A stretch of DNA of 64,000 nucleotides from Streptomyces sp. MBT65 (GTDB lineage Bacteria > Actinomycetota > Actinomycetes > Streptomycetales > Streptomycetaceae): assembly GCF_016612545.1 (NCBI RefSeq), contig NZ_JAENRY010000001.1, positions 62,001 through 126,000 on the forward strand, in the 5' to 3' direction. Of this stretch, positions 3,811 to 51,585 are shown piece after piece. The position numbers and the translations under genes are program-made. Each line of letters opens with the position of its first letter. The stretch's first letter is position 1. A model generated the notes under the pieces. That model was not told the DNA's origin, did no database searches, and was given only the letters and a program-made list of their open reading frames with translations.

Positions 3811-4334
3811 CTCTCCTCCAGCGAAGCGGATTTGCCGGACGGCGCGAGCATCGCTCGGGGCCCGTCGGTGCCGTCGAGGTTGGCGTTGATCCGCTCGGCG
3901 ATCCGCCACCCCTCCGAAGTGCGCACCCAGCGCCAGGTGTTGGCGGAGACCTGGAACACCCAGAACCGTCCGGCGTCGGCGTCCCACCGCAGATGCAGCG
4001 CGTGGCTGCGGCCGGTGGCCCGGTCGCCGTCGACGACGACGTGCGGCGCGGTCAGCACATGACCGCAGCCGTTGTGGATCACGCTCTGATGGCCCGGTCC
4101 GTGGACCATGCCGACGATGCCGTCCCAGCCCTCCATCCGCAGATGGGGGACAGCGTCGAAGACACCGTCCTCGGTCCAGAGCGCAGCCGCGGCCTCCCCC
4201 GATCCGCTGTCGACCGCCGGCCCGTACTGGGCGACGAGCTGCGTGATCTCGACCTGGTCCTCCAAGGCGCGCACCTTCGCCGCCAACGACTCGACGGCTG
4301 CGCGTAGTTGGGCAAGTTCGTCGGTCTCGCTCAT
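3807..4334 (-). CDS. SnoaL-like / NTF2-fold protein
   Basis: A 175-residue protein. The first 30 residues form a charged helix (LRAAVESLAAKVRALEDQVE) with heptad character, and then comes a SnoaL_4-type cone fold starting at ITQLVAQYG. Members of this family are small isomerases, dehydratases or hydrolases without metal or cofactor, or orphan partners. The ATG at 4334 lies eight bases after the alcohol dehydrogenase stop, and the end overlaps the TTG of the next gene, so the three genes are one operon. The function is not predictable from sequence. Confidence 0.8.
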   Translation of the reverse strand: MSETDELAQLRAAVESLAAKVRALEDQVEITQLVAQYGPAVDSGSGEAAAALWTEDGVFDAVPHLRMEGWDGIVGMVHGPGHQSVIHNGCGHVLTAPHVVVDGDRATGRSHALHLRWDADAGRFWVFQVSANTWRWVRTSEGWRIAERINANLDGTDGPRAMLAPSGKSASLEES

Positions 4335-4342
4335 GAGTGTGG

Positions 4343-5365
4343 TCAGCTCCCTGGTACGACGATGATCCGGGCCGGCCCGTTCGCGTCCCGCGCAGCGTCG
4401 AGCGCGGCCTGGACCCCGTCGAGGCCGACGGTGTGCCCGAGCATCGGCCCGACATCGAGGCTGCCGGAGCAGACCGCCCGGAACGCCTCGTCCCAGTGGT
4501 CCATCGACGGGCCGCCCCCGAACTGGATGTTGATGCCCTTCTGTTTGGCGGTCAGGGTGTGCAGATGATCGCCCTCCGGCGGACCGCCGACGGAGAAGAT
4601 CCGGGTACCTCGCTCGCATCCCTTGATGATCGAGTCGAGAACGCCGGGGACGCCGACGCACTCGAACACGACACAACTCGCCCGCGGACCGGCCGCGTTG
4701 CGCCAGGCCTCGTACGGCGAGACCTCGGCCGGATCGACGACCACATCGGCGCCCATGGCCAGCGCGGTCGCGCGACGTGAGGCCTCGAGATCGGCCGCCA
4801 CGATCGGACCGACGCCGAGACTCCTGAGCCGGCCGATCGCCGAGAGGGCGATGGCGCCGCAGCCGATCACCAACGGCGCCTCGTTCGCCGTCAGTTGGGC
4901 GCGGGACGCGGTCGACCAGCCCACCGAGATCGCGTCGGCGACACACACGACCTCGCTCGGCAGATCCGACACCACGACCCGGGTGATGGCCTCGGTGAGC
5001 AGGAACAACTCACCGAATCCGCCCGGGGATTCGGGGCTCTGGCCGATGATCCTGCGGCCGGCGGGCGTGTTCAGTACGGGCAGCGAACTCACCCGTGTAC
5101 CGACCGGGATCCGCCGCTCGGTGCCGGGGCCGTAGTCCACGACCTCGGCGCAGTACTCGTGACCCATCACGATGTCGACGTCCCTGTCGTACGTCGACAT
5201 TCCGCTGTCGTCGTCGGCGCCCGCCTCCGGATGGTCCATGAAGTGCAGATCCGACGCGCAGATCCCGCACGCCAGCGAGCGGACGAGGAGTTGGCCCGGT
5301 CCGGGGACCGGATCGTCGACGGTCCGTGCCTCGACCGTCCCGCCCCGCAGCACAGCAGCACGCAT
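4343..5365 (-). CDS. Zinc-type alcohol dehydrogenase (MDR family)
   Basis: A 340-residue medium-chain dehydrogenase. The catalytic zinc ligands are visible in CGICASDLHF and GHE, and the NAD(P) fold contains VIGCGAIALSAIGRL. The four-cysteine lobe that binds structural zinc in most members is missing; the corresponding stretch (SSLPVLNTPAGRR) has no Cys. The ATG at 5365 has a GGAGGAG ribosome site. It is first in a reverse operon with the SnoaL protein and the fused dehydrogenase, divergent from the TetR gene. It probably oxidises an alcohol intermediate. Confidence 0.88.
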   Translation of the reverse strand: MRAAVLRGGTVEARTVDDPVPGPGQLLVRSLACGICASDLHFMDHPEAGADDDSGMSTYDRDVDIVMGHEYCAEVVDYGPGTERRIPVGTRVSSLPVLNTPAGRRIIGQSPESPGGFGELFLLTEAITRVVVSDLPSEVVCVADAISVGWSTASRAQLTANEAPLVIGCGAIALSAIGRLRSLGVGPIVAADLEASRRATALAMGADVVVDPAEVSPYEAWRNAAGPRASCVVFECVGVPGVLDSIIKGCERGTRIFSVGGPPEGDHLHTLTAKQKGINIQFGGGPSMDHWDEAFRAVCSGSLDVGPMLGHTVGLDGVQAALDAARDANGPARIIVVPGS

Positions 5366-10449: not shown

Positions 10450-10491
10450 GCTTCATTGGAGCAAGCCGCCCATCCATGCGAGGAGAACAGG

Positions 10492-11223
10492 ATGCGGTTC
10501 CAGGACAAGGTGGCGATCGTCACCGGAGCGGGACAGGGAATCGGCGAGGACTACGCCCGGGCGCTGGCCGCCGAGGGCGCACGGGTCGTGGTCGCGGACA
10601 TCAACGAGGAGCAGGGGCAGCGGGTCGCCAAGGAGCTGGACTCCGCGCTCTTCGTCAAGGTCGACGTCGGAGACCCCGCCTCGGCCGACGCGCTGGCCGC
10701 CGCCACCGTCGCCGAGTTCGGCCGCATCGACTACCTGATCAACAACGCCGCGATCTACCACAGCATGCGGCGCGAGGGCCTGACCACCGTCGACCTCGAC
10801 TACCTCAACCGCTTCATCCAGGTGAACCTGATGGGCGCCCTGTACGTCACCCGGGCCGTCGTCCCGCACCTGACCGAGGGCGCCGCGATCGTCAACCAGT
10901 CGTCTGCCGCCGCCTACATGGCGAGCGGCTACTACGGCCTGGCCAAGATCGGCATCAACCACCTCACCGCGTCGCTGGCCGCCGAACTCGGCGGCCGGGG
11001 CATCCGCGTCAACGGCATCGCCCCCGGCCCCACCGACACCGAGGCCACGGCCACCGTCGTACCGGTCGAGTTCCAGCAGCGGATGACCCAGGCCCTGGCC
11101 ATCAAACGGATGGGCACCCCCGGCGACCTCACCCCCACTGTGCTGTTCCTGCTCTCCGACGACGCCGGCTGGCTGACGGGACAGACCATCAGCGTGGACG
11201 GCGGACAGGTGGTGCGACTGTGA
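10492..11223 (+). CDS. Short-chain dehydrogenase/reductase
   Basis: A 243-residue SDR with GAGQGIG nucleotide motif, NNAA, Ser in NQSSAAAY and active site YGLAK. The ATG at 10492 follows an AGGAG ribosome site. It overlaps the following aldehyde dehydrogenase (GTGA), which suggests consecutive oxidation of alcohol to aldehyde to acid. It is the first gene of a long forward unit under the TTGATT/TAGTTT promoter. Confidence 0.92.
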   Translation: MRFQDKVAIVTGAGQGIGEDYARALAAEGARVVVADINEEQGQRVAKELDSALFVKVDVGDPASADALAAATVAEFGRIDYLINNAAIYHSMRREGLTTVDLDYLNRFIQVNLMGALYVTRAVVPHLTEGAAIVNQSSAAAYMASGYYGLAKIGINHLTASLAAELGGRGIRVNGIAPGPTDTEATATVVPVEFQQRMTQALAIKRMGTPGDLTPTVLFLLSDDAGWLTGQTISVDGGQVVRL

Positions 11224-12659
11224 CCCGCCTGCTCATCGACGGCCAACTGGTCGACGGGGAGCGGACGTTCCCCTCGCTCAACCCCGCTACCGGCGAGGTC
11301 TACGGCCACGCCCCCGAGGCCACCACCGCCCAGGCCGAGGCGGCCGTAGCGGCGGCCCGCACCGCCTTCGACACCACCGCATGGGCCACCGACGTACAAC
11401 TGCGCATCCGCTGTCTCGACCAACTGCACCAGGCGCTCCTCGACCACGTCGAGGAGTTGCGCGAGCTGACCATCGCCGAGGTCGGCGCGCCCCGCATGCT
11501 CACCTACGGCCCCCAACTCGACGACCCCGTCAAGCTGGTGCGCTTCTACGCGGACCTGCTGCGCAAGTACCCGCTCACCGAGGATCTGGGTGAGGTCGAG
11601 ATCCGGGGCCAACGCCACCGCCGCTGGGTGGAGAAGGAGGCGGCCGGGGTCGTCGCGGCGATCATCGCCTACAACTACCCGAACCAACTCGCCCTGGCCA
11701 AACTCGCCCCCGCGCTCGCGGCCGGCTGCACGGTCGTCCTCAAGGGCGCCCCCGACACCCCGCTCACCACCCTGTTCCTCGGCCAACTCATCGCCGAGCA
11801 CACGGACATACCGCCCGGCGTCGTCAACGTCCTCACGTCCTCCGGGGCCGACGTCGGCGAGACGCTCACCACCCACCCCGACGTCGACATGATCACCTTC
11901 ACCGGTTCCACCGCGACCGGCCGCCGCATCATGGAGGCCGCGAGCCGCACGGTGAAGAAGGTCTTCCTGGAACTCGGCGGCAAGTCCGCCATGATCGTCC
12001 TCGACGACGCCGACTTCGCCACCGCCGCCATGTTCGCGGCCGGCACCATCTGCTCGCACTCCGGGCAGGGGTGCGCGCTCACCTCCCGGCTGCTCGTGCC
12101 CAGGGAGCACCACGACGAGATCGTCGAGAAGGTCGCGGCGGGCCTCGGCCGCATCCCGCTCGGCGACCCCGCCGACCCCAAGACCTTCGCGGGCCCGCTC
12201 ATCAGCGAGCGCCAGCGCGACAAGGTCGACGGCATGGTCGAGAGGGCCGTGGCCGCCGGTGCGAACCTCGTCACCGGTGGCGAGAAGGTCGATCCCGGCT
12301 TCTTCTACCGGCCGACCCTCCTCAGCAACGTCGATCCGGACAGCGAGATCGCCCAGGACGAGGTCTTCGGCCCTGTGCTCGTGGTGATTCCGTACGACGA
12401 CGATGACGACGCCGTCCGCATCGCCAACAACTCCGTCTTCGGCCTCTCCGGCGGCGTCCAGAGCGCCGACGACGAGCGGGCCATCGCGCTCGCCCGCCGG
12501 ATCCGCACCGGCACCTTCAGCATCAACGGCGGCAACTACTTCGCCGCCGACGTGCCGTTCGGCGGCTACAAGCAGTCGGGCATCGGCCGGGAGAGCGGCG
12601 TGCCCGGCCTGGAGGAGTTCCTGGAGTACAAGTCCTTCGCGGTCGTGGTCCGGTCATGA
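11220..12659 (+). CDS. NAD(P)-dependent aldehyde dehydrogenase
   Basis: A 479-residue aldehyde dehydrogenase. FTGSTATGRR marks the cofactor site, LELGGKSA carries the general-base Glu, and the nucleophilic Cys lies in HSGQGCALTSR. EVFGPVL and the C-terminal PFGGYKQSG confirm the family. It converts an aldehyde to a carboxylic acid ready for CoA activation or transfer. The GTG start overlaps the SDR stop, and the end overlaps the CoA transferase start. Confidence 0.95.
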   Translation: MTRLLIDGQLVDGERTFPSLNPATGEVYGHAPEATTAQAEAAVAAARTAFDTTAWATDVQLRIRCLDQLHQALLDHVEELRELTIAEVGAPRMLTYGPQLDDPVKLVRFYADLLRKYPLTEDLGEVEIRGQRHRRWVEKEAAGVVAAIIAYNYPNQLALAKLAPALAAGCTVVLKGAPDTPLTTLFLGQLIAEHTDIPPGVVNVLTSSGADVGETLTTHPDVDMITFTGSTATGRRIMEAASRTVKKVFLELGGKSAMIVLDDADFATAAMFAAGTICSHSGQGCALTSRLLVPREHHDEIVEKVAAGLGRIPLGDPADPKTFAGPLISERQRDKVDGMVERAVAAGANLVTGGEKVDPGFFYRPTLLSNVDPDSEIAQDEVFGPVLVVIPYDDDDDAVRIANNSVFGLSGGVQSADDERAIALARRIRTGTFSINGGNYFAADVPFGGYKQSGIGRESGVPGLEEFLEYKSFAVVVRS

Positions 12660-13861
12660 TGCCGCTCGACGGAATACGCGTTCTCGAAGTCGCCATGTAC
12701 GGCTTCGTGCCTTCGGCGGGAGCCGTCCTCTCCGACTGGGGAGCGGACGTCATCAAGGTCGAGCACGCCGTTACCGGCGACCCGCAGCGCGGTCTGAGGC
12801 AGACCGGCACGATGCGCGTCGAGGGCGACCCCAACCCCAACGTCGAGCACGCCAACCGCGGCAAGCGCAGCCTCGGCCTCGACATCTCACGCCCCGAGGG
12901 CAAGGAGGTGCTGTACGAACTCGCCCGGCACGCCGACGTGTTCCTGACCAGCTTCCTTCCCGGCCACCGGGACAAGTTCGGCATCGACGTCGACGACATC
13001 CGTACCGTCAACCCCCGCATCGTCTACGCCCGGGGCAGCGCCTTCGGACCGCGCGGACCGGAAGCGGGGAAGGGTGGCTACGACATGACGGCGTTCTGGG
13101 CCCGCGCCGGCACCGCCGCGAGCATCACTCCCGAGGGCACGGACGGCATCATCAACCCGCCGTCACCGGCCTACGGCGACACGATCTCCGGCACCAACCT
13201 CGCCGGCGGCATCGCGGCGGCGCTCCTGAAACGCGAGCGCACCGGCGAACCCTCGGTCGTGGACGTCTCCCTGCTCGGCAGCGGACTGTGGGCGATGGGC
13301 CATGCCACCGCGCTCTCCCTGCACCTCGGCAAGCCGTGGATCCCGCCGCCCGTCGGCACCCACGGCTCCGTCGCGAACCCCCTGTCCGGGCTGTACGAGA
13401 CCTCCGACGGTCACCACCTGGCGTTCGTCATGATGCAGCCCGGCAAGTTCTGGGCCGATGTGTGCCGCCACATCGACCGCCCCGAACTCGCCGACGACCC
13501 GCGCTTCGACACGGCCGAGAACCTCATTGCCAACACGGCGGAGGCCGTCAAGATCCTGCGCGAGGTCCTCGCCACCCGCACCCTCGCGCAGTGGAGCCGG
13601 CGCTTCGCCACCCTGGCCGGGCCGTGGGCCCCGGTGCAGGACTCCCTGCAAGTGGGTGAGGACCCACAGATCAGAGCCAACGAGTACCTGCTGCCGGCAG
13701 GAGAGCTCGAACTGGTCAGCAGCCCCGTGCAGTTCGACGTGCAAGCCCCCAGCCTCGGTCCCGCACCCGAGTTCGCCGCCCAGACCGAGGAGATCCTTCT
13801 CGAGCTGGGCCTGGACTGGGACCGCATCATCGCGCTCAAGGCGGCGGGCGCCGTCACCTGA
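12656..13861 (+). CDS. Family III CoA transferase (CaiB/BaiF)
   Basis: A 401-residue class III CoA transferase. The N-terminal DGIRVLEVA, GADVIKVEH and ANRGKRSLGLD motifs and a candidate catalytic Asp in AYGDTISG are present. It moves CoA between carboxylates, probably activating the acid formed by the aldehyde dehydrogenase immediately upstream (ATGA overlap). A 41-bp gap with a degenerate operator separates it from the lipoprotein gene. Confidence 0.92.
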   Translation: MMPLDGIRVLEVAMYGFVPSAGAVLSDWGADVIKVEHAVTGDPQRGLRQTGTMRVEGDPNPNVEHANRGKRSLGLDISRPEGKEVLYELARHADVFLTSFLPGHRDKFGIDVDDIRTVNPRIVYARGSAFGPRGPEAGKGGYDMTAFWARAGTAASITPEGTDGIINPPSPAYGDTISGTNLAGGIAAALLKRERTGEPSVVDVSLLGSGLWAMGHATALSLHLGKPWIPPPVGTHGSVANPLSGLYETSDGHHLAFVMMQPGKFWADVCRHIDRPELADDPRFDTAENLIANTAEAVKILREVLATRTLAQWSRRFATLAGPWAPVQDSLQVGEDPQIRANEYLLPAGELELVSSPVQFDVQAPSLGPAPEFAAQTEEILLELGLDWDRIIALKAAGAVT

Positions 13862-13902: not shown

Positions 13903-15267
13903 ATGAGACGCTTGCTCATCCCCGCGCTCGTCCTGGCCCTCGCGGCCGCGGCCGGATGCTCCGGCCGCACCAAGTCCGCGGACACCAGCAGCCCTTCGAC
14001 CACCGGAGCCGCCGACACCGCGACCGCGGACTTCGGCACGCTGAAGTCCGTGTGCGGCAAGGGGACGCCCAAGACCGTCACCAGTCAGGGCGTCACCAGC
14101 TCCGAGATCAAGGTCGGCGTCTTCAGCGACGTCGGCTTCACCAAGAACCCGGAGTTCGGGAACGCGGCGAAGGTCTTCACCTCCTGGTGCAACGCCGCCG
14201 GCGGCATCAACGGCCGCAAGATCACACCCGTGACGCACGACTCCGCGCTCATGCAGGTCAACCAGCAGATGATCGGGGCCTGCCGCACCGACTTCTTCGA
14301 GGTGGGCGGCGGCGCCGCCCTCGACGGCCTGGGCGTCAAGACCCGATTGAAGTGCCTGCTCCCCGAGTTCCCGGCGCAGGTCACCTCCGAGATCGGCGCG
14401 GACCTCCAGGTCATGGCCATGGGCGCCTCGACGGGCTATTCGCCCTACGCCGGTTACTTCTCCTGGCTGTTGAAGGAGGCGTACCCGTCGTCCGCGAGCG
14501 GCGTCGGCATCATCACCGGCGACGTGCCCATCACCAAGCTCCTCGCGGGCCAGGACAAGGAAGTCCTCACCGCGATGGGCGGCAAGGTCACCTACTCCGA
14601 CCTCTACCCCGCGCAGGGTGTCTCCGACTGGACGCCGTACGCCCAGTCCATCAAGACGAAGAAGGTCAAGGGACTCGTCTTCCTGGGGGACTTCACCCAG
14701 TTGGCGAAGCTGGAGCAGGCGCTCACCAACATCGACTACAAGCTCGACTGGATCGACGCGAACAGCAACGCCTACGGCCCCGCCTTCGTCAAGCTGGCCG
14801 GTCCCGCGCTCGGTACACAGACCAACTTCGCCTCCATCAACGGATACCCGTTGGAGAAGGCCGACGACAACCCGGCGACGAAGGAGATGGTCGCCCTGTT
14901 CAAGAAGTACGCGCCCGACGCGCAGCTCACCCTGCCCGCCATGCAGGCCTTCTCCAGCTGGCTGCTGTTCGCCACCTCGGCCCGCGACTGCGCCGAACTG
15001 ACCCGCAGTTGTGTCCTTGAGAACGCCAAGAAGCAGACCGACTGGACCGGGGGAGGGCTCCACGCCTCGGTCAACCTCTCCTCACCCGACGAGCCCCTGA
15101 AGTGCTTCAACGTCGAGAAGGCCACCACCAGCGGCTGGGTGCCGGCCGACTTCAAGCCCACCGAGGGCGTCTACCGGTGCGACGCGCCCGCCTACAAGTT
15201 CAAGGGGAACTACGGCAAGCCGCCGACCCTGGCCGACGTCGGCAAGTCGCTGTCCGACCTCAAGTAA
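13903..15267 (+). CDS. Substrate-binding lipoprotein of a branched-chain-type ABC importer
   Basis: A 454-residue periplasmic-binding protein of the Leu/Ile/Val (Peripla_BP_6) type. A hydrophobic signal ends in a lipobox with Cys19 (AAAAGC), so the protein should be anchored outside the membrane. SSEIKVGVFSDVGF begins the binding fold, and six or more cysteines in the mature protein suggest disulphides. The permease and ATPase genes are about 30 kb away (44282-47791) under a related promoter. They presumably import the pathway substrate together. Confidence 0.9.
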   Translation: MRRLLIPALVLALAAAAGCSGRTKSADTSSPSTTGAADTATADFGTLKSVCGKGTPKTVTSQGVTSSEIKVGVFSDVGFTKNPEFGNAAKVFTSWCNAAGGINGRKITPVTHDSALMQVNQQMIGACRTDFFEVGGGAALDGLGVKTRLKCLLPEFPAQVTSEIGADLQVMAMGASTGYSPYAGYFSWLLKEAYPSSASGVGIITGDVPITKLLAGQDKEVLTAMGGKVTYSDLYPAQGVSDWTPYAQSIKTKKVKGLVFLGDFTQLAKLEQALTNIDYKLDWIDANSNAYGPAFVKLAGPALGTQTNFASINGYPLEKADDNPATKEMVALFKKYAPDAQLTLPAMQAFSSWLLFATSARDCAELTRSCVLENAKKQTDWTGGGLHASVNLSSPDEPLKCFNVEKATTSGWVPADFKPTEGVYRCDAPAYKFKGNYGKPPTLADVGKSLSDLK

Positions 15268-15309: not shown

Positions 15310-15504
15310 GTGAAGGTACGAGTCGACCCGGAGCGCTGTCAGGGCCACACGCTCTGCGCGATGCGCGCACCGGACACCTTCGAACTCAGCGAGATCGACG
15401 GGCACTCCTCGGTCGTCGAGGAGGAAGTCCCCGCCGATCAGGAGGCGGACGTCCGCGAGGCGGTCCTGTCCTGCCCGGAGCGGGCGATCTCCCTCATCTC
15501 CTGA
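15310..15504 (+). CDS. [3Fe-4S]-type ferredoxin
   Basis: A 64-residue ferredoxin with CQGHTLCAMRAP near the N-terminus and SCPERAI near the C-terminus. The position that is the third Cys in four-iron ferredoxins is Ala, so a [3Fe-4S] cluster with three Cys ligands is expected. The GTG start is preceded by GGAAGG. It sits 37 bp before a P450 gene and is the obvious electron donor for it. Confidence 0.92.
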   Translation: MKVRVDPERCQGHTLCAMRAPDTFELSEIDGHSSVVEEEVPADQEADVREAVLSCPERAISLIS

Positions 15505-15541: not shown

Positions 15542-16915
15542 ATGACCACGGAAGACGCGGCCGTCGACGACGGCGGCCGCAAGCACCCCCAGGTGCACTT
15601 CGACCGGCACACCCCCGACTACCGCGACCGGTTCGAGGACATCACCCACGAGCTGCACGGCACGTGCCCGATCGCCTGGACGGAGACCCACGGAGGCCAC
15701 TGGGTCGCCAGCGGCAACCGCGAGGTCTTCGAACTCGCGCGGTCCGCGGAGTTCCTCTCCAACGACCACGACGTGAAGGGGGAGCGGCGCGGATACAACG
15801 GGATCTCCATCCCCGCACCGCCCCCCGAGCGGAAGGGCCGGGGCGGGTTCCTGGAGATGGACCCGCCGGACCAGCGCTACTACCGGCAGACCCTCAACCC
15901 GTATCTTTCGCCGGCGGCGATCCAGCGCTGGATCCCGTTCGTCGACGAGGTCGTCCGCGCGAGCATCGACGAGAAGATCGAGTCCGGGCACATCGACTTC
16001 GTCGACGACCTCGCCAACATCGTCCCCGCCGTGCTCACCCTGGCGATGATGGGCATCCCGCTGGAGCACTGGACCATCTACAACGAACCGGCCCACGCCT
16101 CCGTCTACACCCCGCCCAACTCACCCGACATGCAAAGGGTGTTGGACCTGAGCCGCAAGATGGGCATGGACCTCATGGCTCAGCTCGCGGAGATCCGGAA
16201 GAACCCCCGCCCGGGCCTGGTGGACGCGCTGGTCCGCGCCGACATCAACGGCCGCAACCCCGACGACGGCGAACTCCTCGGCGTGTGCGCCCTGTTGATC
16301 GGCGGCGGCTTCGACACGACGACCGCGCTCACCGCCCACTCCCTCGAATGGCTCTCCCAACACCCGGACGAACGCGCCCGGTTGAGCCGTGACCGCAAGA
16401 CCCTCCTGGACTCCGCGACCGAGGAGTTCCTGCGCTTCTACACCCCGGCACCCGGAGACGGCCGCACCATCACCGCCGACTGCGAGATCGCCGGCACCGA
16501 GTTCAAGGAGGGCGAACGCCTCTGGCTCTCCTGGGCGATGGCCAACCGCGACCCCTCGGTCTTCCCCGACCCGGACCGCATCGACATGGAGCGCAAGGGC
16601 AACCGGCACAGCAGCTTCGGCCTCGGCATCCACCGCTGCATCGGCTCCAACGTGGCCCGCACGGTGTTCAAGCGGATGGTGACGGCCGTACTCGACCGGA
16701 TGCCCGACTTCGTGTGCGACCCCGAAGGCGCCGTCCACTACGAGACCATCGGCGTCATCCAGGGCATGCGCCACCTCCCCGCGACCTTCACCCCGGGCGA
16801 ACGGCTCGGCGCCGGACTCGACGAGACCCTCGTCGAACTCCAGAAGATCTGCGACGAACAGCGCCTCGCCGAACCGGTCACCGTCCGCAAGTCCAAGGCC
16901 CGGATCGACTCATGA
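15542..16915 (+). CDS. Cytochrome P450
   Basis: A 457-residue soluble bacterial P450. The I-helix oxygen-binding segment is GGGFDTTTA, the K-helix ExxR is in EEFLRF and the haem ligand is Cys366 in FGLGIHRCIG. It should hydroxylate an unactivated carbon of the imported compound with electrons from the upstream ferredoxin. The C-terminus runs about 50 residues beyond the usual end. It overlaps the aldolase fusion gene by ATGA. The CYP family cannot be assigned from sequence alone. Confidence 0.94.
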   Translation: MTTEDAAVDDGGRKHPQVHFDRHTPDYRDRFEDITHELHGTCPIAWTETHGGHWVASGNREVFELARSAEFLSNDHDVKGERRGYNGISIPAPPPERKGRGGFLEMDPPDQRYYRQTLNPYLSPAAIQRWIPFVDEVVRASIDEKIESGHIDFVDDLANIVPAVLTLAMMGIPLEHWTIYNEPAHASVYTPPNSPDMQRVLDLSRKMGMDLMAQLAEIRKNPRPGLVDALVRADINGRNPDDGELLGVCALLIGGGFDTTTALTAHSLEWLSQHPDERARLSRDRKTLLDSATEEFLRFYTPAPGDGRTITADCEIAGTEFKEGERLWLSWAMANRDPSVFPDPDRIDMERKGNRHSSFGLGIHRCIGSNVARTVFKRMVTAVLDRMPDFVCDPEGAVHYETIGVIQGMRHLPATFTPGERLGAGLDETLVELQKICDEQRLAEPVTVRKSKARIDS

Positions 16916-18573
16916 CGGACCATCAGCGTCCGGCGCCGGTGATCACGGAGGAGAACGCGTTCTTCTGGACCTCCGGCGCCGACGGCCGGCTGCGGGTGGC
17001 GGAGTGCGGGTCCTGCGCGGCCCTCATCCACCCACCGCAGCCGGTCTGCCGGTACTGCCACGGCCACGACATGGGCGTCCGGGCCGTCTCCGGCCGTGCG
17101 ACGCTGATCGGCTTCACCGTCAACCACCGCTTCGCCCTGCCCGGTCTGCCCGCGCCCTACGTCGTGGCCCAGGTCGCCCTGGAGGAGGACCCCAGGATCC
17201 GGCTCACCACCAACGCCGTCCAATGCACCCCGGACGAGCTGGAGTTGGGCATGCGGATGGAGGTCGTCTTCGAGGAGGTCGAGGACGCCTGGCTGCCCCT
17301 GTTCCGCCCGGCGCGCGGCCGCCCGGCCCCCGACCCGCTGCCGCTCGCCGAGGTCGACACCCACCAACTCGCCCGCCGCGTACGGCCGATGGTGACCACG
17401 GAGAAGTTCGAGGACAAGGTCGCCATCACCGGCATCGGTATGTCGGAGATCGGCCGCCGCCTCCTCGTCCCACCAGTGTCCCTCACCGTCCAGGCCTGCC
17501 AACGCGCCATCGCCGACGCCGGGTTGACCGTCGCCGACATCGACGGCCTGGCCACCTACCCGGGCGCCGGAGCCGCGTACGGCGGCTTCGGCGAAGGCGG
17601 GATCACCGCCCTGGAGTCGGCCCTCGGTCTCGAACCCACCTGGTACAACGGCGGCAGCGAGACCTTCGGCCCCTGCGGCTCACTCATCTCCGCGATGCTC
17701 GCCGTCGCCGGGGGACTCGCCCGTCACGTCCTGTGCTTCCGCACGGTCTGGGAGGCGTCCTACGGCGACCTCGTGCGCCGCGGCAGAATCGCGCAGGACC
17801 CACCGCGCAAGCTGGACGGCTGGATGAAGCCCTTCGGGGCGATCTCCGCCGCCCACACCCTCGCCCAGAACGCCCAACGCCACTTCCACCGCTACGGCAC
17901 CACCCGCGAGACCCTCGGCTGGATCGCGCTCAACCAGCGGGCCAACGCGGCACTCAACCCCACAGCGGTCTACCGCGACCCGCTGACCATGGACGACTAC
18001 CTGGGCGCCCGCCCCATCACCACCCCGTTCGGCCTCTACGACTGCGACGTCCCCTGCGACGGAGCGGTCGCCGTGATCGTGTCGGCCGTGGACGTGGCCC
18101 GGGACCTCGCCCAACCGCCCGTCCTGGTCGAGGCGGTGGGCACCCAGATCCTGGAACGCCTGGAATGGGACCAGAGCACACTCACCCACGAACCCCAGGT
18201 CCTCGGCCAGTCCGCCCACTTGTGGTCCCGCACCGCGCTGCGCCCCGAGGACGTCGACGTGGCCGAGCTGTACGACGGCTTCACCTTCAACTGCCTCTCC
18301 TGGCTCGAGGGGTTGGGGTTCTGCGGCATCGGCGAGGCCAAGGACTTCCTGGACGGAGGCAAGAACATCGCACGGGACGGCGTACTGCCACTGAACACCC
18401 ATGGCGGACAGCTCTCCCACGGCCGCACCCATGGCATGGGACTGGTCCACGAGGCGATCACCCAACTGCGCGGCGCGGCCGGGCCGCGACAGGTGTCCGG
18501 CGCACGGGTCGCGGTGGCGAGCAGCGGCGGACTCACCCCGAGCGGCGTGATCCTCTTCCGGGCGGACGGATGA
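16912..18573 (+). CDS. DUF35 zinc-ribbon/OB-fold fused to a thiolase-like (Ltp2-type) protein
   Basis: A 553-residue fusion. Residues 1 to about 150 are a DUF35 protein with a zinc ribbon (C32, C35, C46, C49) and an OB fold. Residues from about 163 form a thiolase-fold lipid-transfer/SCP-x-like domain with AELYDGFT and HGGQLSHGRTHGMG. In steroid side-chain degradation a DUF35 domain (in ChsH2) binds the Ltp2 retro-aldolase as a separate protein. Here the two are one chain, so a carbon-carbon cleaving aldolase role is a reasonable inference. Translation is coupled at both ends. Confidence 0.88.
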   Translation: MTDHQRPAPVITEENAFFWTSGADGRLRVAECGSCAALIHPPQPVCRYCHGHDMGVRAVSGRATLIGFTVNHRFALPGLPAPYVVAQVALEEDPRIRLTTNAVQCTPDELELGMRMEVVFEEVEDAWLPLFRPARGRPAPDPLPLAEVDTHQLARRVRPMVTTEKFEDKVAITGIGMSEIGRRLLVPPVSLTVQACQRAIADAGLTVADIDGLATYPGAGAAYGGFGEGGITALESALGLEPTWYNGGSETFGPCGSLISAMLAVAGGLARHVLCFRTVWEASYGDLVRRGRIAQDPPRKLDGWMKPFGAISAAHTLAQNAQRHFHRYGTTRETLGWIALNQRANAALNPTAVYRDPLTMDDYLGARPITTPFGLYDCDVPCDGAVAVIVSAVDVARDLAQPPVLVEAVGTQILERLEWDQSTLTHEPQVLGQSAHLWSRTALRPEDVDVAELYDGFTFNCLSWLEGLGFCGIGEAKDFLDGGKNIARDGVLPLNTHGGQLSHGRTHGMGLVHEAITQLRGAAGPRQVSGARVAVASSGGLTPSGVILFRADG

Positions 18574-19487
18574 ACTCACGCACCACGGAGGTCGTTTCGC
18601 GGGTCGTCGACGTCGACGGCATCCCCATGTCGGCGCTGCTGTGCGAGGCCCGCGAACCGCGCGCGGTGCTCGTCGCGCTGCACGGGGGAGCGGTGACGTC
18701 GCGCTACTTCGACTACCCGGACCAACCTCGGCTGTCCCTCCTGCGCACCGCCGCGGCACTGGACTTCACGGTCGTCGCCATCGACCGTCCCGGATACGGG
18801 AGTTCCGCTCCGTACGGCGAGAGCATGGCTTCCCCCGCCCGCCGCGTGGACCTCGCCTACGGAGCGGTGGACCAGGTGCTCGGCTCGCGTCCCCGCGGAG
18901 CGGGACTGTTCCTCTGGGCGCACTCGATCGGCTGCGCCCTGGGTGTGCACATGGCGGGAGACGAGCGGCGGAACGACCTTCTCGGCCTGGAGATCGCCGG
19001 TACCGGACGCCGTCACGCGCCCGGCGCCGTCGACATCCTCGACTTCAGGCGGCGTGACCCGGACGTGCCGAGACGGCCCGGACCCGGCCTGCGCGACCTG
19101 CTGTGGGAGCCGTCGCGCCTGTATCCGGACGAGGTCGTCGGCGCCGGCCGTATCCAGTCACCGGGTCCGCCGTACGAGGCCACCGTGGCCCGCCGCTGGC
19201 CGCTGGAGTTCGCCGACGTCGCGGCCCGGGTCCGGATTCCCGTCCACTACACGCTCGGCGACCACGAACGTGTGTGGAGCTCCGGGCCCGCGGCCATGGC
19301 CGACATCGCGAGCCTCTTCACCGACTCCCCGCGGGTCGTCACCGACGAACAGGCCGACAGCGGCCACAACTTGAGCATCGGGCGCACCGCCACCGGGTAC
19401 CACCTGAAGATCCTCTCCTTCGTTGAGGAATGCGTTCTCGGACATGAGAACGACGAGATCGACCATCTGCCGAGGAGGGCCGGATGA
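18570..19487 (+). CDS. Alpha/beta hydrolase
   Basis: A 305-residue alpha/beta hydrolase. HGGAVTSRYFDYP gives the oxyanion region, Ser in WAHSIGCALG is the nucleophile (first Gly of GxSxG is Ala), Asp is in LGDHERVW and His in DSGHNLSIG. An esterase, thioesterase or C-C hydrolase role is possible. It overlaps both neighbours by four bases. A TTCTC-N6-GAGAA inverted repeat occurs near its 3' end, before the DoxX gene. Confidence 0.87.
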   Translation: MNSRTTEVVSRVVDVDGIPMSALLCEAREPRAVLVALHGGAVTSRYFDYPDQPRLSLLRTAAALDFTVVAIDRPGYGSSAPYGESMASPARRVDLAYGAVDQVLGSRPRGAGLFLWAHSIGCALGVHMAGDERRNDLLGLEIAGTGRRHAPGAVDILDFRRRDPDVPRRPGPGLRDLLWEPSRLYPDEVVGAGRIQSPGPPYEATVARRWPLEFADVAARVRIPVHYTLGDHERVWSSGPAAMADIASLFTDSPRVVTDEQADSGHNLSIGRTATGYHLKILSFVEECVLGHENDEIDHLPRRAG

Positions 19488-20068
19488 GTGACGCCGAGAT
19501 TGCGGTACTGCTGCTCGTACGCGTGGCCGTAGGACTGATCATGATCATGCACGGGCTCAATCACTGGCGCGGCGGCGGCCGCATCGAGGGCACCGCCCGC
19601 TGGTTCACCGGACTCGGCCTGAGACAGGGCGTGCTGCAGGCCTGGGCCAGCGTGTTCACCGAGGTCGGCGCGGGCGTCCTGCTCGTCCTCGGCCTGCTCA
19701 CCCCGCTGGCCTGCGCGGCCGTGATCTCCGTGATGCTGGTCGCGGGGCTCCTCGCCCACCGGCGCAACGGCTTCTTCGTCTTCAAGGACGGCTACGAGTA
19801 CGTCCTCACACTCGCCGTCGTCGCCCTGGCCATCGCGGTACTGGGCCCCGGCCACTGGTCCGTCGACCACGTGGCCGACATCGACGTCACCGGCTGGACC
19901 GGCGGCGGAATCGCCCTGGGCGTGGCCGTGCTGGCGACCGGGGGACTGCTGGGCACGTTCTGGCGACCGGAGCGGCAGCAAGCCGAGGCCGGACCGGAAG
20001 CCGACGTCGCGTCACCCCGGCCCGAGCCGGAGAACACCCCCGAGCACGTCGACCAGGAGGCCCGCTGA
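19484..20068 (+). CDS. DoxX family membrane protein
   Basis: A 194-residue protein with four hydrophobic segments in the first 165 residues and a Pro/Glu-rich cytoplasmic tail of about 30 residues. The start matches DoxX/SURF4-like proteins (RVAVGLIMIMHGLNHW). Members are membrane-associated and often linked to quinone or thiol redox, but the role here is unclear. It overlaps its neighbours on both sides within the operon. Confidence 0.82.
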   Translation: MSDAEIAVLLLVRVAVGLIMIMHGLNHWRGGGRIEGTARWFTGLGLRQGVLQAWASVFTEVGAGVLLVLGLLTPLACAAVISVMLVAGLLAHRRNGFFVFKDGYEYVLTLAVVALAIAVLGPGHWSVDHVADIDVTGWTGGGIALGVAVLATGGLLGTFWRPERQQAEAGPEADVASPRPEPENTPEHVDQEAR

Positions 20069-20919
20069 TGCGCGTCGGATTCATCGGGCTGGGCAATCAG
20101 GGCGCTCCCATGGCCCGCCGGATCGTCGAGGCGGGCTTCGCCACGACGCTCTGGGCGCGCCGCCCGGCCACGCTCGCCGCGTTCGCGGACACGGCGGCGC
20201 AGCGGGCCGCGTCCCCCGTCGAACTGGCCGCCGCCAGCGACCTGGTGTGCGTCTGCGTCGTCGACGACGCCGATGTCGAACAGGTCGTCACGGGCGAACA
20301 GGGCGTGCTGACCGGGCTGCGCCGGGGCGGGGTGATCGCCGTCCACAGCACCGTCCACCCCGACACCTGCCGGCGGCTCGCCGAGCGCGCCCAGGTGCAC
20401 GGCGTCTCCGTGGTCGACGCGCCCGTCAGTGGTGGCGGGAACGCGGCGGCCGAGGGCAGGCTGCTGGTGATGGCGGGCGGCGAGTCGGGCACGGTCGCCT
20501 ACTGCCGCAAGGTGTTCGAGGCGTTCGGCGATCCGGTCGTCCATATGGGCCCGCTGGGCGCGGGACAGATCGCCAAGCTCCTCAACAACCTGTTGTTCAC
20601 CGCCAACTTGGCGACCGCGGCCGACACACTGGCCCTCGCACCGGAGTTCGGCATCGAGCGCGGCGCCCTGGCCGAGGTCGTCCTGCACGGCAGCGGATCG
20701 AGCTTCGCGCTCGACCGGGTGCGGGCCGCGGGCGGCACCCTCGACCGACTCGCCGAACGTGCCGGACCGCTGCTCCGTAAGGACGTGCGGCTGTTGGCCG
20801 ACCTCGCCGAGACGGCGGGCGCCCCGACGGGCAGCGTGCTGGCGGCGGCCCACGCGGCCCTCGACCACATGGGGCAGGGACGCCTGACGGCAACCTCAAC
20901 TCCCGTTCCACGAAAGTGA
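20068..20919 (+). CDS. NAD(P)-dependent beta-hydroxyacid dehydrogenase (3-hydroxyisobutyrate dehydrogenase-like)
   Basis: A 283-residue protein of the 6-phosphogluconate/3-hydroxyisobutyrate dehydrogenase family. The nucleotide fold is GFIGLGNQG, the substrate loop is DAPVSGGGNAAAEGRL and the catalytic Lys is in GQIAKLLNN. It resembles the N-terminal half of the fused enzyme at 2164-3810. It starts on the DoxX stop codon (TGATG) and is the last gene before a 70-bp gap. Confidence 0.9.
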   Translation: MRVGFIGLGNQGAPMARRIVEAGFATTLWARRPATLAAFADTAAQRAASPVELAAASDLVCVCVVDDADVEQVVTGEQGVLTGLRRGGVIAVHSTVHPDTCRRLAERAQVHGVSVVDAPVSGGGNAAAEGRLLVMAGGESGTVAYCRKVFEAFGDPVVHMGPLGAGQIAKLLNNLLFTANLATAADTLALAPEFGIERGALAEVVLHGSGSSFALDRVRAAGGTLDRLAERAGPLLRKDVRLLADLAETAGAPTGSVLAAAHAALDHMGQGRLTATSTPVPRK

Positions 20920-20989: not shown

Positions 20990-22285
20990 GTGCACACCGT
21001 GAAGGACTTCGAGGCGATCGACTTCTTCCAGGACGACCAAGTCGTCGCGGACCCCTATCCCTACCTGGCGGCCTTGCGCGGGAAGTGCCCGGTGCACCGT
21101 GAGAGCCACCACGACGTGACGATGGTGACCGGGTACGACGAGGCGATCCAGGTCCTCAACGACGCCGATACGTACTCGTCGTGCCTCTCGGTCACCGGAC
21201 CCTTCCCCGGGTTCCCGGTCCCGCTGGACGGCGACGTCGACGTCAGCGCGCTGATCGAGCAGTACCGCGACCAACTCCCGATGAGCGACCAACTCCCCAC
21301 CCTCGACCCGCCCATGCACACCGATCACCGCGGACTGCTGATGCGGATGATCACCCCGCGCCGCCTGAAGGAGAACGAGGCGTCGATGTGGCACCTCGCC
21401 GACGCGCAGTTGGACACGTATCTCGCGGGCGGAGAGGGCGACTTCATCAGCGGGTTCGCCGGCCCCTTCACCCTGCGGGTCATCGCCGACCTGCTGGGCG
21501 TGCCCGACGAGGATCGCAACTCGTTCGTGGAGGGCCTCGAACACCACCCCCAGGGCGGCATCGGCAGCACGGACGGCGAGGTGGCGTACTCGCCGCTGCA
21601 GTATCTGTACGGGCAGTTCTCGGCCTATGTCGAGGAGCGTCGCCTGGAGCCCCGCGAGGACGTGATCACGGGCCTCGCCCTCGCGAAGTTCAGCGACGGC
21701 TCGACGCCCGACGTCGCCGACGTGGCGCGCGTCGCCACGAACCTGTTCGCGGCCGGCCAGGAGACCACGGTCCGACTGCTGAGCAACGCCCTCAAGCTGA
21801 TCGCCGAAGACCCCGATCTGCAGCGGCTGTTGCGCACCGAGCGCGACCGCATCCCGAACTTCATCGAGGAGACGCTGCGCACCGAGAGCCCGATCAAGGG
21901 CGACTTCCGGCTGTCCCGCGTCCCGTCCACCGTGGGCGGCGTCGACATCCCCGCCGGCACCACCCTCATGGTTCTCAACGGCGCCGCGAACCGCGACCCG
22001 CGCCACTTCGAGGACCCCGAGACCTTCGACCCGGCCCGCGCCAACGCCCGGCACCACCTCGCCTTCGGCCGCGGACCCCACACCTGCCCCGGCGCCCCAC
22101 TCGCCCGCGCCGAGGCCCGCGTGGGCATCGAGCGCATCCTCGACCGCACGACGGACATCAGGATCTCGGAGAGCGTGCACGGCCCTGCCGACGCCCGGAC
22201 ATACCGTTACCTGCCCACGTACATCCTGCGCGGACTCACCCATCTGAACCTGGAGTTCACGCTCGCCGAGGAGTCCGCCCGATGA
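20990..22285 (+). CDS. Cytochrome P450
   Basis: A 431-residue P450. The I-helix segment is AAGQETTVR, ExxR is in EETLRT and the haem ligand is Cys366 in FGRGPHTCPG. The GTG at 20990 has AAGGGA upstream; a second GTG nine bases later is possible. It overlaps its own ferredoxin gene (ATGA), so it is a self-contained oxygenase module distinct from the first P450 of the region. Confidence 0.94.
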   Translation: MHTVKDFEAIDFFQDDQVVADPYPYLAALRGKCPVHRESHHDVTMVTGYDEAIQVLNDADTYSSCLSVTGPFPGFPVPLDGDVDVSALIEQYRDQLPMSDQLPTLDPPMHTDHRGLLMRMITPRRLKENEASMWHLADAQLDTYLAGGEGDFISGFAGPFTLRVIADLLGVPDEDRNSFVEGLEHHPQGGIGSTDGEVAYSPLQYLYGQFSAYVEERRLEPREDVITGLALAKFSDGSTPDVADVARVATNLFAAGQETTVRLLSNALKLIAEDPDLQRLLRTERDRIPNFIEETLRTESPIKGDFRLSRVPSTVGGVDIPAGTTLMVLNGAANRDPRHFEDPETFDPARANARHHLAFGRGPHTCPGAPLARAEARVGIERILDRTTDIRISESVHGPADARTYRYLPTYILRGLTHLNLEFTLAEESAR

Positions 22286-23488: not shown

Positions 23489-24263
23489 AATCGGCCATGG
23501 CCGTGACGCCCTCGGGATGCAGACTCACCGCGTCCGGCCGTACCCGGAGATCCACCGTGACACCGGAGTGGGCCGCGCGGGCCGCGAACGACAGGGAGTC
23601 GTCCAGCAGCGGATCGGTACCGGCGACCAGGAGTTGGATCGGCGGCAGCCCGTGCAGATTGGCGTGCAGCGGGCTCAGCAGCGGGTTGGTCCGATCGGCG
23701 CCGGCCGCGAACCGGGCCGCGTGCAAACGGAGTTCGTCGATGTCGAAGCCCGGATCGGCGGCCGCGTTGAACAACAGACTCGGCGCCTCCAGCGTCAGGT
23801 CGAGCAGCGCCGAACTCAGCACCGCGCACTCCGGCTGCCGCGCCCCCATGTCCCGCAGCCGCACCAGCAGCGAGGCCGCGAGCCCGGCCCCCAAGCGCTC
23901 ACCGGCCAACGCGACCGGACCACGGGCCTGGCACGAGGTGTACACGGCATGCACGTCGTCCAGCGCCCCCGGGAAGGACGACCGGTACCGCGGGCACACC
24001 ACAACGGCCCCTGTGCGCAAGGCGATCCGCTCGGCGAGGTCGACCGCCGACTCCGGCGAACCCGACAACTGCCGGTCCCCGTGGAGATAGAGGACGACGA
24101 GATCGGTGGCGTCCGGCGGCCGTACGATCGGCCCGACGGGGCTCGACTCGACCCGTACCCGCCCGTCGCCGGCCGCCGCACGGTCCGTGTCCGCCCGTAC
24201 GTCGGCCAGGTCGGAGTTGCTGAGATCGGTGGCTCCGGTTGCCCCAACTCGTGTGTCACCCAC
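23454..24263 (-). CDS. Alpha/beta hydrolase-fold protein lacking the nucleophile Ser
   Basis: A 269-residue protein of the hormone-sensitive-lipase-like (Abhydrolase_3) group. The Asp of the triad lies in LVAGTDPLLDD and a His in VSLHPEG, but the GDSAG elbow reads GERLG, with Arg123 where Ser should be. The HGGG loop is reduced to LHGDR. It is therefore probably not a normal esterase and may be a binding protein or a decayed enzyme. It overlaps the crotonase gene by eight bases in a reverse operon. Confidence 0.8.
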   Translation of the reverse strand: MGDTRVGATGATDLSNSDLADVRADTDRAAAGDGRVRVESSPVGPIVRPPDATDLVVLYLHGDRQLSGSPESAVDLAERIALRTGAVVVCPRYRSSFPGALDDVHAVYTSCQARGPVALAGERLGAGLAASLLVRLRDMGARQPECAVLSSALLDLTLEAPSLLFNAAADPGFDIDELRLHAARFAAGADRTNPLLSPLHANLHGLPPIQLLVAGTDPLLDDSLSFAARAAHSGVTVDLRVRPDAVSLHPEGVTAMADFIQAWARAARP

Positions 24264-24975
24264 GGGACATCACCCTCTCCGCTGCCTGCCAGTGCTCGTC
24301 GGACACCCAGAGGCGGGCGAAGGCGCGGGCCGCCTCCTCCTCCGGGACGGCTCCGCTCATCACGCGTTTGATCTCCCGCGCCGGATTGGTCGCGAGGGAT
24401 CTGGCCAGGGTGCGCCAGCCCTCGGCGAAGTCGGCGCGCGGCAGCACCAGTTCGAGCAGTCCGACGCGCTGGGCCTCGGCCGCGTCGAGGACCGTTCCGG
24501 CGCCCGCGAGCATCAACGCCCGCCCCTTGCCGACGAGTTGGGCGAGGCGCTCGGCGCCGCCCCACGCGGGCATGATGGCCAGAGCGACTTGGTTGAAGCC
24601 GATCCGGATGTCGTCGGCGGCGACCCGAATGTCGGCGGCCACCGCGACCTCGGCGCCGCCGCCGAACGCGTGCCCGTTCAACGCGGCGATCACCGGTCCG
24701 GGGAAGGCCGCGATGCGATCGCAGATCCCCCTCATCCGCAGGGCCATGGCCATCGCGTCCTCCTCGGTCCGGATCGCACTCAGCTGCTTCAGGTCCCCGC
24801 CGGAGACGAACGCCCGGTCACCGGCACCGGTGATGACCAGGGCCTTGGCGCCCGCGGCCGCGTCGAGCACCTTGTCCAGTTCGTCCATCGTGGCCGGGGC
24901 GATGGCGTTGCGGGCCCGCGGGCGGTCGATGGTGACGACCGCCAGGCCCTCGTCGAGTTCGAGATCTACGTCCAT
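24256..24975 (-). CDS. Enoyl-CoA hydratase/isomerase family protein
   Basis: A 239-residue crotonase. TIDRPRARNAI, FVSGGDLKQL (oxyanion hole) and HAFGGGAEVAVAADI are present, but the usual second catalytic Glu region reads IMPAWGGAERLAQ. Such sequences include decarboxylases and isomerases as well as hydratases. It lies four bases after the reductase gene and is co-transcribed with it. Confidence 0.88.
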   Translation of the reverse strand: MDVDLELDEGLAVVTIDRPRARNAIAPATMDELDKVLDAAAGAKALVITGAGDRAFVSGGDLKQLSAIRTEEDAMAMALRMRGICDRIAAFPGPVIAALNGHAFGGGAEVAVAADIRVAADDIRIGFNQVALAIMPAWGGAERLAQLVGKGRALMLAGAGTVLDAAEAQRVGLLELVLPRADFAEGWRTLARSLATNPAREIKRVMSGAVPEEEAARAFARLWVSDEHWQAAERVMSRG

Positions 24976-31856: not shown

Positions 31857-32254
31857 TGAACGCCCGCGTACTGGTCGCCAAACCGGGCCTCGACGGACAC
31901 GACCGCGGAGCCAAGATCGTCGCGCGGGCGCTGCGCGACGCGGGATTCGAGGTCATCTTCACCGGGATCCGACAACGCGTCGACGACATCGTGGCGGTCG
32001 CCGTCCAGGAGGACGCTTCCGTCGTCGGCCTGAGCATTCTCTCCGGCGCACATCTCGCTCTCACCACCCGGGTGATCGAGGCCCTGCGCGCCACGGGGTC
32101 CGAGGACATCGCCGTCGTGGTCGGCGGCACCATCCCGCCGGCCGACGTACCGAAACTGCTCACCGCGGGAGCCGCCGCGGTCTTCCCCACGGGCACACCC
32201 CTCGACGCCCTCGTGGCCGAGATGCGCGCCCTGACATCCGTCACCTCGCCCTGA
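31856..32254 (+). CDS. Cobalamin-binding subunit of the acyl-CoA mutase
   Basis: A 132-residue B12-binding domain with the full signature DxHxxG (DGHDRG, lower axial His), SxL (SILSG) and GG (VVGGTIP). It shares one base with the mutase large-subunit gene, so the two chains are made together and form a split mutase as in isobutyryl-CoA or 2-hydroxyisobutyryl-CoA mutase. The sequence shows no loss of key residues. Confidence 0.95.
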   Translation: MNARVLVAKPGLDGHDRGAKIVARALRDAGFEVIFTGIRQRVDDIVAVAVQEDASVVGLSILSGAHLALTTRVIEALRATGSEDIAVVVGGTIPPADVPKLLTAGAAAVFPTGTPLDALVAEMRALTSVTSP

Positions 32255-51535: not shown

Positions 51536-51548
51536 AGTGATCTCCCTC

Positions 51549-51585
51549 CAGGTGTCGACCGGAGTGTAATTTGAGATCACCTGGG
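51549..51585. promoter_or_regulatory. Inverted repeat between divergent crotonase and CoA transferase genes
   Basis: CCAGGTG (51549-51555) and CACCTGG (51579-51585) face each other across 23 bp in the divergent gap. It could be an operator or simply paired ribosome-site sequence. The GAGAAT palindrome is absent here. Confidence 0.35.

Follow-up and report, generated by a model that had tools for sequence, protein, structure and literature searches.

We studied a gene in a 64,000-nucleotide stretch of the genome of Streptomyces sp. MBT65, a strain described as a soil actinomycete (contig NZ_JAENRY010000001.1, positions 62,001 to 126,000; hereafter the window). The gene lies on the plus strand at 16912..18573 and encodes, from the ATG at 16912, a 553-residue protein in which a DUF35 module is joined to a thiolase-fold domain resembling the aldolase Ltp2. 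This one-chain architecture had been proposed in an earlier sequence-only reading of the window and was borne out by Pfam and PDB searches, all three Pfam models scoring over their cut-offs. The protein carries a zf-ChsH2 zinc ribbon (residues 19-54, 16966..17073; 36.4 bits, cut-off 23.2), an OB_ChsH2_C OB fold (residues 57-121, 17080..17274; 51.6 bits, cut-off 27.1), a linker corresponding to the gap between the domain matches (residues about 122-166, 17275..17409), and the Ltp2-like thiolase-fold domain (residues about 167-550, 17410..18561), which was delimited by PDB, Pfam, and NCBIfam matches and includes Thiolase_C_1 at residues 438-542 (115.4 bits, cut-off 28). The coupling to a cytochrome P450 gene proposed in the same reading was also found: the stop of the P450 gene (15542..16915, plus strand; closest to P450cin among solved chains, 165 bits) and the start of the fusion gene overlap in a shared ATGA.

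Both halves of the fusion have their best solved match in the same complex, TcLtp2-ChsH2DUF35 (6ok1). Residues 170-548 match TcLtp2 (6ok1_A, E 1.5e-55), the alignment extending across the whole thiolase fold, and residues 9-134 match ChsH2-DUF35 (6ok1_B, E 2.4e-19). The assignment of the first part to DUF35 is supported by both Pfam models above their gathering scores, by four presumed zinc ligands (Cys 32, 35, 46, and 49) that are all invariant in 30 aligned fusions, and by the fold. Indeed, the modelled DUF35 part superposed on 6ok1_B with a Z score of 16.7 (root-mean-square deviation 2.4, 130 aligned residues) and on 9myr_B with a Z score of 16.4 (2.1, 131 aligned residues), in a comparison that lists one chain per entry and represents 6ok1 and 9myr by their DUF35 chains only. 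Structure prediction, suggested in the sequence-only reading as a check on the fusion, was usable for this part alone: AlphaFold models made from 30- and 47-row alignments had mean predicted local distance difference test values of 45 and 50, the thiolase part being poorly modelled because the alignment was too shallow.

An assembly join, a frame artefact, and a chance open reading frame (ORF) were ruled out, as both domains lie in a single frame in 80/80 relatives retained from other genomes (the best 80 of 580 confirmed stretches, hereafter the close relatives); the combination of DUF35 and a thiolase fold in one chain is thus confirmed as real. Fused relatives were found in Streptomyces, Mycobacterium, Nocardia, Rhodococcus, Amycolatopsis, Actinomadura, Catenulispora, and further actinomycetes. 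In a census of the host's class, where four candidates were scored per genome, a match with E<=1e-90 was present in 55 of the 296 sampled genomes, fused and split forms together. The 100 matches listed comprise 60 full-length fused proteins (one of them the window itself), 2 partial ones, and 38 with the thiolase domain only. From these we took as loci the 39 fused rows below 70% identity (L125-L163, hereafter mid fusions), one at 81% (L164), and the 38 thiolase-only rows (L165-L202, hereafter split loci), one of them, G072:C80 (L188), interrupted by a stop codon; the other 19 fused rows (>=70% identity) and the 2 partial rows were left out. The 80 close fusions, 39 more distant mid fusions, 11 plasmid loci, and 38 split loci make up 168 distinct loci. 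L164 is identical to L012, so that 169 counted loci correspond to 168 distinct ones, and it stands outside all counts on 119 fusion loci. Contig ends truncate many of the locus stretches. Among viral contigs, 37 pattern matches gave no confirmed relative. The plasmid matches listed are mostly annotated merely as 'OB-fold domain-containing protein' and 'thiolase family protein'. Since DUF35-thiolase fusions were already noted in 2010 (PMC2954200, accessible text), the architecture is in itself no novelty.

The active site was examined in MAFFT alignments to the 6ok1_A stretch, in which Y294DHF and Y344 were recovered at their published numbers. According to the accessible text of PMC12329534, Tyr294 of the YDHF motif acts as base and Tyr344 as acid in TcLtp2, with His296 shaping the oxyanion hole; at the positions of 294, 296, and 344, CtSal has Tyr302, Cys304, and Gln352. 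Of this set the fusion keeps Tyr294 alone. Its YDGF motif (residues 454-457, 18271..18282, plus strand) retains the Tyr, Asp, and Phe of YDHF, with Tyr454 at the position of the base and Gly456 at that of His296, and Arg505, in GGQLSHGR (18424..18426, plus strand), occupies the column of the acid Tyr344. The column of the thiolase nucleophile Cys holds Phe252, the first residue of FGPC (residues 252-255, 17665..17676, plus strand); Cys255, three residues further on, is unconserved (Gly in 71/80 close relatives, Cys in 3/80). The fusion lacks the HDCF motif, the GHP His, and the nucleophile Cys of canonical and SCP2-type thiolases, and has YDGF, GR, and Phe252 instead.

These replacements are nearly constant. 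Arg is found at the Tyr344 column in 168/168 distinct loci, fused and split, and YDGF in 167/168, the exception being a split locus with YDAF (L203 and L204 are outside the motif count). In 30 true Ltp2 loci used as a control (L205-L234), the column holds Tyr in 30/30, and the motif is YDHF in 24, YDAF in 5, and YENF in 1; all six loci without YDHF keep Tyr344. Because some true Ltp2 loci also lack YDHF, the Arg is a sharper mark of the clade than YDGF. The active-site residues are retained across relatives from about 45 to 95% identity.

In a 43-row tree, a branch with 100/99 support separates thiolases (HDCF and others) from aldolase-like proteins, and the fusion lies on the aldolase side. 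The sequence-only reading had staked its proposal on the domain not being a condensing or degradative thiolase, and this placement, like the missing HDCF and GHP residues, agrees with it. The proteins with Tyr and Arg at the two positions form a clade with 100/100 support (25 rows, 18 fused and 7 split, the split ones coming from Actinobacteria and Proteobacteria). IpfD and Sal are further out than Ltp2, and IpfD falls outside the 100/100 clade, but on a long branch with weak support. A quick 110-row tree placed all 60 fused rows on one side of a single branch (Shimodaira-Hasegawa approximate likelihood ratio test 98), with one state change, a count independent of the root; the branch uniting the split rows has support 0. 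The simplest reading would be a single joining (or single splitting) event. In 8/8 annotated split plasmid pairs, the thiolase gene follows the DUF35 gene with an overlap of 1 or 4 bp, so one frameshift could have joined such a pair; plasmid loci L105, L106, L112, and L115 are fused. In 36 of 45 split loci, the DUF35 ORF closest to the thiolase gene precedes it on the same strand; in 3 it lies downstream and in 4 on the other strand, and the two loci without one are both short stretches.

As the thiolase His and Cys are lost and the aldolase Tyr is kept, we favor C-C lyase rather than thiolase chemistry and read the fusion, with a probability of roughly 60%, as a one-chain member of the DUF35-dependent aldolases of thiolase fold that acts as a C-C lyase. 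The observations behind this reading are the domain make-up, the clade, the lost thiolase catalytic set, the constant Tyr/Arg pair, and the genome context. We infer a retro-aldol step, a role for Arg505, and a class of substrates, the bulky β-hydroxyacyl-coenzyme A (CoA) esters. Tyr454 would take the proton of the β-hydroxyl, and the Cα-Cβ bond would break in retro-aldol fashion to give a ketone or aldehyde and a short acyl-CoA enolate. Arg505 might stabilize or help protonate this enolate, or bind a substrate carboxylate, at a step for which Ltp2 has a Tyr and Sal a Cys. The DUF35 domain would wall and stabilize the active site in cis or in a dimer, replacing the separately encoded partner.

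The fusion might also be an orthologue of Ltp2 that acts on steroid C3 side chains and is served in trans by a hydratase (a MaoC protein or a crotonase), which we consider improbable. TcLtp2 is indeed its nearest solved relative, crotonase genes lie in the window, and MaoC genes are present elsewhere in the host genome. However, the NCBIfam Ltp2 model PRK07855, with its cut-off of 469 bits, gives the fusion 261.5, and the acid Tyr is Arg in every distinct locus. In addition, a true Ltp2 on contig C295 of the host reaches 636 bits, has YDHF and Tyr344, and adjoins MaoC and DUF35 matches. The bit score, the Gly and Arg replacements, and this separate gene speak against simple orthology, which we rejected. 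Of the features that define Ltp2, the fusion lacks the oxyanion His296, the acid Tyr344, and the coupling to a DUF35-bearing MaoC hydratase; compared to Sal, it has Gly and Arg in place of the catalytic Cys of YDCY and Gln352, and four Cys but no C3H1 finger. The Ltp2-type assignment of the sequence-only reading therefore stands as to the aldolase side of the tree and the nearest relative in sequence, but not as to the model score and two of the catalytic residues. Elsewhere in the host genome, contig C222 holds at about 84-129 kb three more DUF35 matches, three thiolase-fold genes, and two MaoC matches, a stretch that looks like a second side-chain degradation island.

The genes around the fusion are all on the plus strand. 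An Rv0768-like aldehyde dehydrogenase (10476..12659; Pfam domain at residues 262-720 only, the true start being probably internal) is followed by a family III (CaiB/BaiF) CoA-transferase (12656..13861; matched in 33/80 close loci), a periplasmic-binding-protein-like Peripla_BP_6 gene (13903..15267; Pfam), a single-cluster ferredoxin (Fer4_15; 15310..15504), the P450, and the fusion. Downstream come an alpha/beta hydrolase (18570..19487; 74/80), whose start shares an ATGA overlap with the fusion stop, a DoxX family gene (19484..20068; 25/80), a 3-hydroxyisobutyrate-dehydrogenase-like (HIBADH-like) gene (20068..20919; 70/80), and a second P450 close to CYP150A6 (20990..22285; 494 bits). Matches of any identity over half the query were counted, in a tally that takes in 14 further loci; one of these, L081, is the window's own copy and was subtracted. 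CYP150A5 converts beta-ionone to 4-hydroxy-beta-ionone (PMC6237146, accessible text), and the CYP150A6-like P450 may be a hint of terpenoid-like substrates.

No MaoC partner was found in the window, as had been stated beforehand: a home-made profile found none, none was present among the Pfam-scanned genes, which make up part of the ORFs, and its contig, C111, gave no PF01575 match (PF13452 was left unsearched). Crotonase-fold ECH_1 genes were identified by Pfam at 1323-2141, 24256-24975, 50561-51580, and 62729-63529. No second thiolase-fold gene adjoins the fusion, the canonical thiolase genes of the window (38916-40064 and 55818-56966) being more than 20 kb away. The window also contains three further ORFs of note: a 763-residue ORF at 2164-4455 (minus strand) with HIBADH-like and short-chain dehydrogenase parts in tandem, either a fusion or an over-long ORF; a 704-residue ORF at 44282-46396 (plus strand) with two BPD_transp_2 stretches, apparently two branched-chain-type permeases in one chain; and a free-standing B12-binding domain protein at 31856-32254 (plus strand) adjoining a luciferase-like monooxygenase.

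To compare gene neighborhoods, profiles for MaoC, crotonase, P450, CoA-transferase, and acyl-CoA dehydrogenase were built from 10, 4, 2, 2, and 3 host-genome sequences, respectively; the MaoC profile was positive in its control, L099. The Ltp2 control comprised 30 of the 31 matches over the cut-off (the remaining one has no locus), and its flanks reached about 1.5 kb at most. Within 1.5 kb, the 119 fusion loci contained MaoC in 0, crotonase in 1, and P450 in 44 (31 + 13), which answers the earlier suggestion to search similar fusions for hydratase genes. Conversely, MaoC was found at 24 of the 30 true Ltp2 loci, DUF35 at 23, crotonase at 6, and P450 at none. The 38 split loci had MaoC in 5, crotonase in 11, and P450 in 3. 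At 3 kb, 90 of the fusion loci had a P450 and none a MaoC gene. Within about 8 kb on each side, P450 was found at 74/80 close fusions, 26/39 mid fusions, 14/38 split loci, and 5/11 plasmid loci, MaoC at 0/80, 1/39, 5/38, and 2/11 of the same groups, and crotonase at 17/80, 11/39, 18/38, and 8/11. The nearest P450 was both on the same strand and within 3 kb in 71/80, 13/39, 2/38, and 3/11.

Non-orthologous P450-ferredoxin pairs recur beside fusions. In M. triplex, the order is fusion, hydrolase, two HIBADH genes, P450, and ferredoxin, and this P450 is 26% identical to that of the window and nearest to CYP125-type chains. With 36 P450 match rows in the 11.25-Mb host genome, chance proximity would be rare; 0/10 paralogous host thiolase-fold genes had a P450 match within 8 kb (several of the contigs are short, and a weak eleventh match, on C192, was left out). 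The sequence-only reading had concluded that the upstream hydration must use another enzyme. This presumes a hydration and goes beyond the evidence: there are crotonases in the window, and the neighborhood data favor oxygenation in the fused branch.

Several known systems resemble the fusion in part. TcLtp2-ChsH2DUF35 shares the Tyr base and the placement of DUF35 beside the thiolase fold, but it has two chains, its DUF35 is part of a MaoC hydratase subunit, and its residues are YDHF and Tyr344 rather than YDGF and Arg. The bile acid aldolase CtSal-CtShy (9myr) is likewise a thiolase-fold aldolase with DUF35; it differs in its YDCY and Gln, its C3H1 zinc finger, the location of DUF35 on the hydratase Shy, and its separate branch in the tree. 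In IpfDE of plasmid pIBU218, identified by their place between dioxygenase and CoA-ligase genes, and in the split clade members, DUF35 is a small separate gene, off any hydratase. Like the fusion, IpfDE has a proposed cleavage of an oxygenase-made β-hydroxyacyl-CoA. The ibuprofen route is a precedent without a hydratase: according to the accessible text of PMC10004696, a dioxygenase turns ibuprofen-CoA into a diol, for which a cleavage by IpfD plus IpfE to propionyl-CoA and 4-isobutylcatechol is proposed. An ipfD transposon strain did not grow on ibuprofen, although the insertion may be polar on downstream genes (PMC9195938, accessible text). Unlike the fusion, IpfDE is encoded by two genes, has YDAF, keeps Tyr at the 344 column, lies on a long separate branch, and works with an aromatic-ring dioxygenase instead of a P450. 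Besides ipfDE, pIBU218 contains, at L117:938-2502, another pair of a DUF35 and a thiolase-fold gene, the latter over the Ltp2 cut-off (583 bits); genes for a crotonase, a CaiB protein, and an alpha/beta hydrolase lie beside the pair.

The split OB-fold and thiolase pairs on plasmids of Sphingobium, Caulobacter, Massilia, Rhodococcus DK17, and M. chimaera belong to the same Tyr/Arg clade as the fusion (the residues of 2/8 pairs are unchecked), but they have two genes, a weaker P450 link, and hydratase genes more often nearby. The edc estrogen operon of Novosphingobium tardaugens, as far as its accessible description goes, has the order P450 (edcA), chsH2-like gene, and lipid-transfer protein; the likeness lies in the gene order, and its P450 makes a catechol, unlike the β-hydroxyl proposed here. 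The split Tyr/Arg pair of L111 (Massilia putida plasmid) has genes for an indolepyruvate ferredoxin oxidoreductase and for a VOC protein in its vicinity, a set that recalls the edc cluster. The Rv0766c-Rv0770 region led nowhere as a parallel.

By analogy with IpfDE, the β-hydroxyl on which the fusion would act could come from the P450. In the fused branch, the co-operonic P450/ferredoxin is a more likely source of this group than a hydratase. The CoA ester would be supplied by the aldehyde dehydrogenase and the CaiB CoA-transferase, with the alpha/beta hydrolase and HIBADH-like enzyme processing the products. Taken together, this might constitute an oxidative, hydratase-free C-C cleavage module, in which an unactivated acyl chain would be hydroxylated at its β-carbon by the P450, whether CoA is loaded earlier or later, and the single-chain Tyr/Arg DUF35-lyase would cut in one step, bypassing the dehydrogenase and hydratase. 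We advance this module tentatively and at well under even odds; the Tyr/Arg active site of its lyase would add a third type of catalysis to those of Ltp2 (Tyr/Tyr) and Sal (Tyr/Cys).

Several points weigh against the reading of the fusion as an oxygenase-fed lyase. Arg is a poor general acid, and the change from Tyr344 may mean other chemistry. The models of the thiolase part are too poor to place Tyr454 and Arg505, and the position of the Ltp2 clade as nearest neighbor of the Tyr/Arg clade has weak support (90/46). The P450 linkage fades with distance and is weak in the split branch, where crotonases at 18/38 loci and MaoC at 5/38 mean that a hydratase may serve; these hydratases and the crotonases of the window leave room for hydration. 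Among the fusions themselves, there is the one mid locus with MaoC within about 8 kb, a MaoC gene lies about 3 kb from the fusion in plasmid locus L112, and crotonases occur within about 8 kb in 28/119 fusion loci. All these loci are related by descent, so that the counts are non-independent trials. Finally, no described activity for any Tyr/Arg clade member was found in the literature accessible to us.

If Arg505 binds a carboxylate, the same fold could carry out other CoA-thioester chemistry, such as decarboxylation or C-acylation. This is about as improbable as Ltp2 orthology: the constancy of an Arg that would serve poorly as an acid suits it, but the aldolase base Tyr is constant as well. 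According to the accessible text of PMC12329534, TbSLP decarboxylates malonyl-CoA, although very slowly, whereas CtSal shows no malonyl-CoA decarboxylation. A true thiolase or acyltransferase making or breaking β-ketoacyl-CoA, to which the acetyl-CoA acetyltransferases and BbsB among the NCBIfam and PDB matches and the DUF35 partners of archaeal thiolase, BbsAB, and PhlABC (PDB entries) might point, is very unlikely given the absence of HDCF and the GHP His, the Phe252 in the nucleophile column with Cys255 unconserved, and the position of the fusion outside the thiolase half of the tree; a canonical thiolase was rejected on the same grounds. Equally unlikely is a non-catalytic acyl-CoA-binding or scaffold protein, which would fit the change of two of the three Ltp2 catalytic positions and has a precedent in PhlA, an inactive thiolase-superfamily partner (PMC2954200, accessible text), but neither the conservation of the active-site residues over so wide a range of identity nor the lack of an adjoining second thiolase-fold gene.

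A literature search made mostly without subscription papers returned no description of the Tyr/Arg clade, of the confinement of the fusions to one branch, or of the opposite P450 and MaoC associations, and the string 'YDGF' is absent from the main text of PMC12329534. For the two-chain CtSal-ShyDUF35 complex, dilution leads to a loss of activity (accessible text of PMC11321319 and PMC12329534), and single-chain enzymes could help biocatalysis. If the lyase reading is true, a common uncharacterized clade would join the short list of thiolase-fold aldolases, DUF35 could serve in cis without a hydratase, and a P450-lyase route for side-chain removal would be gained.

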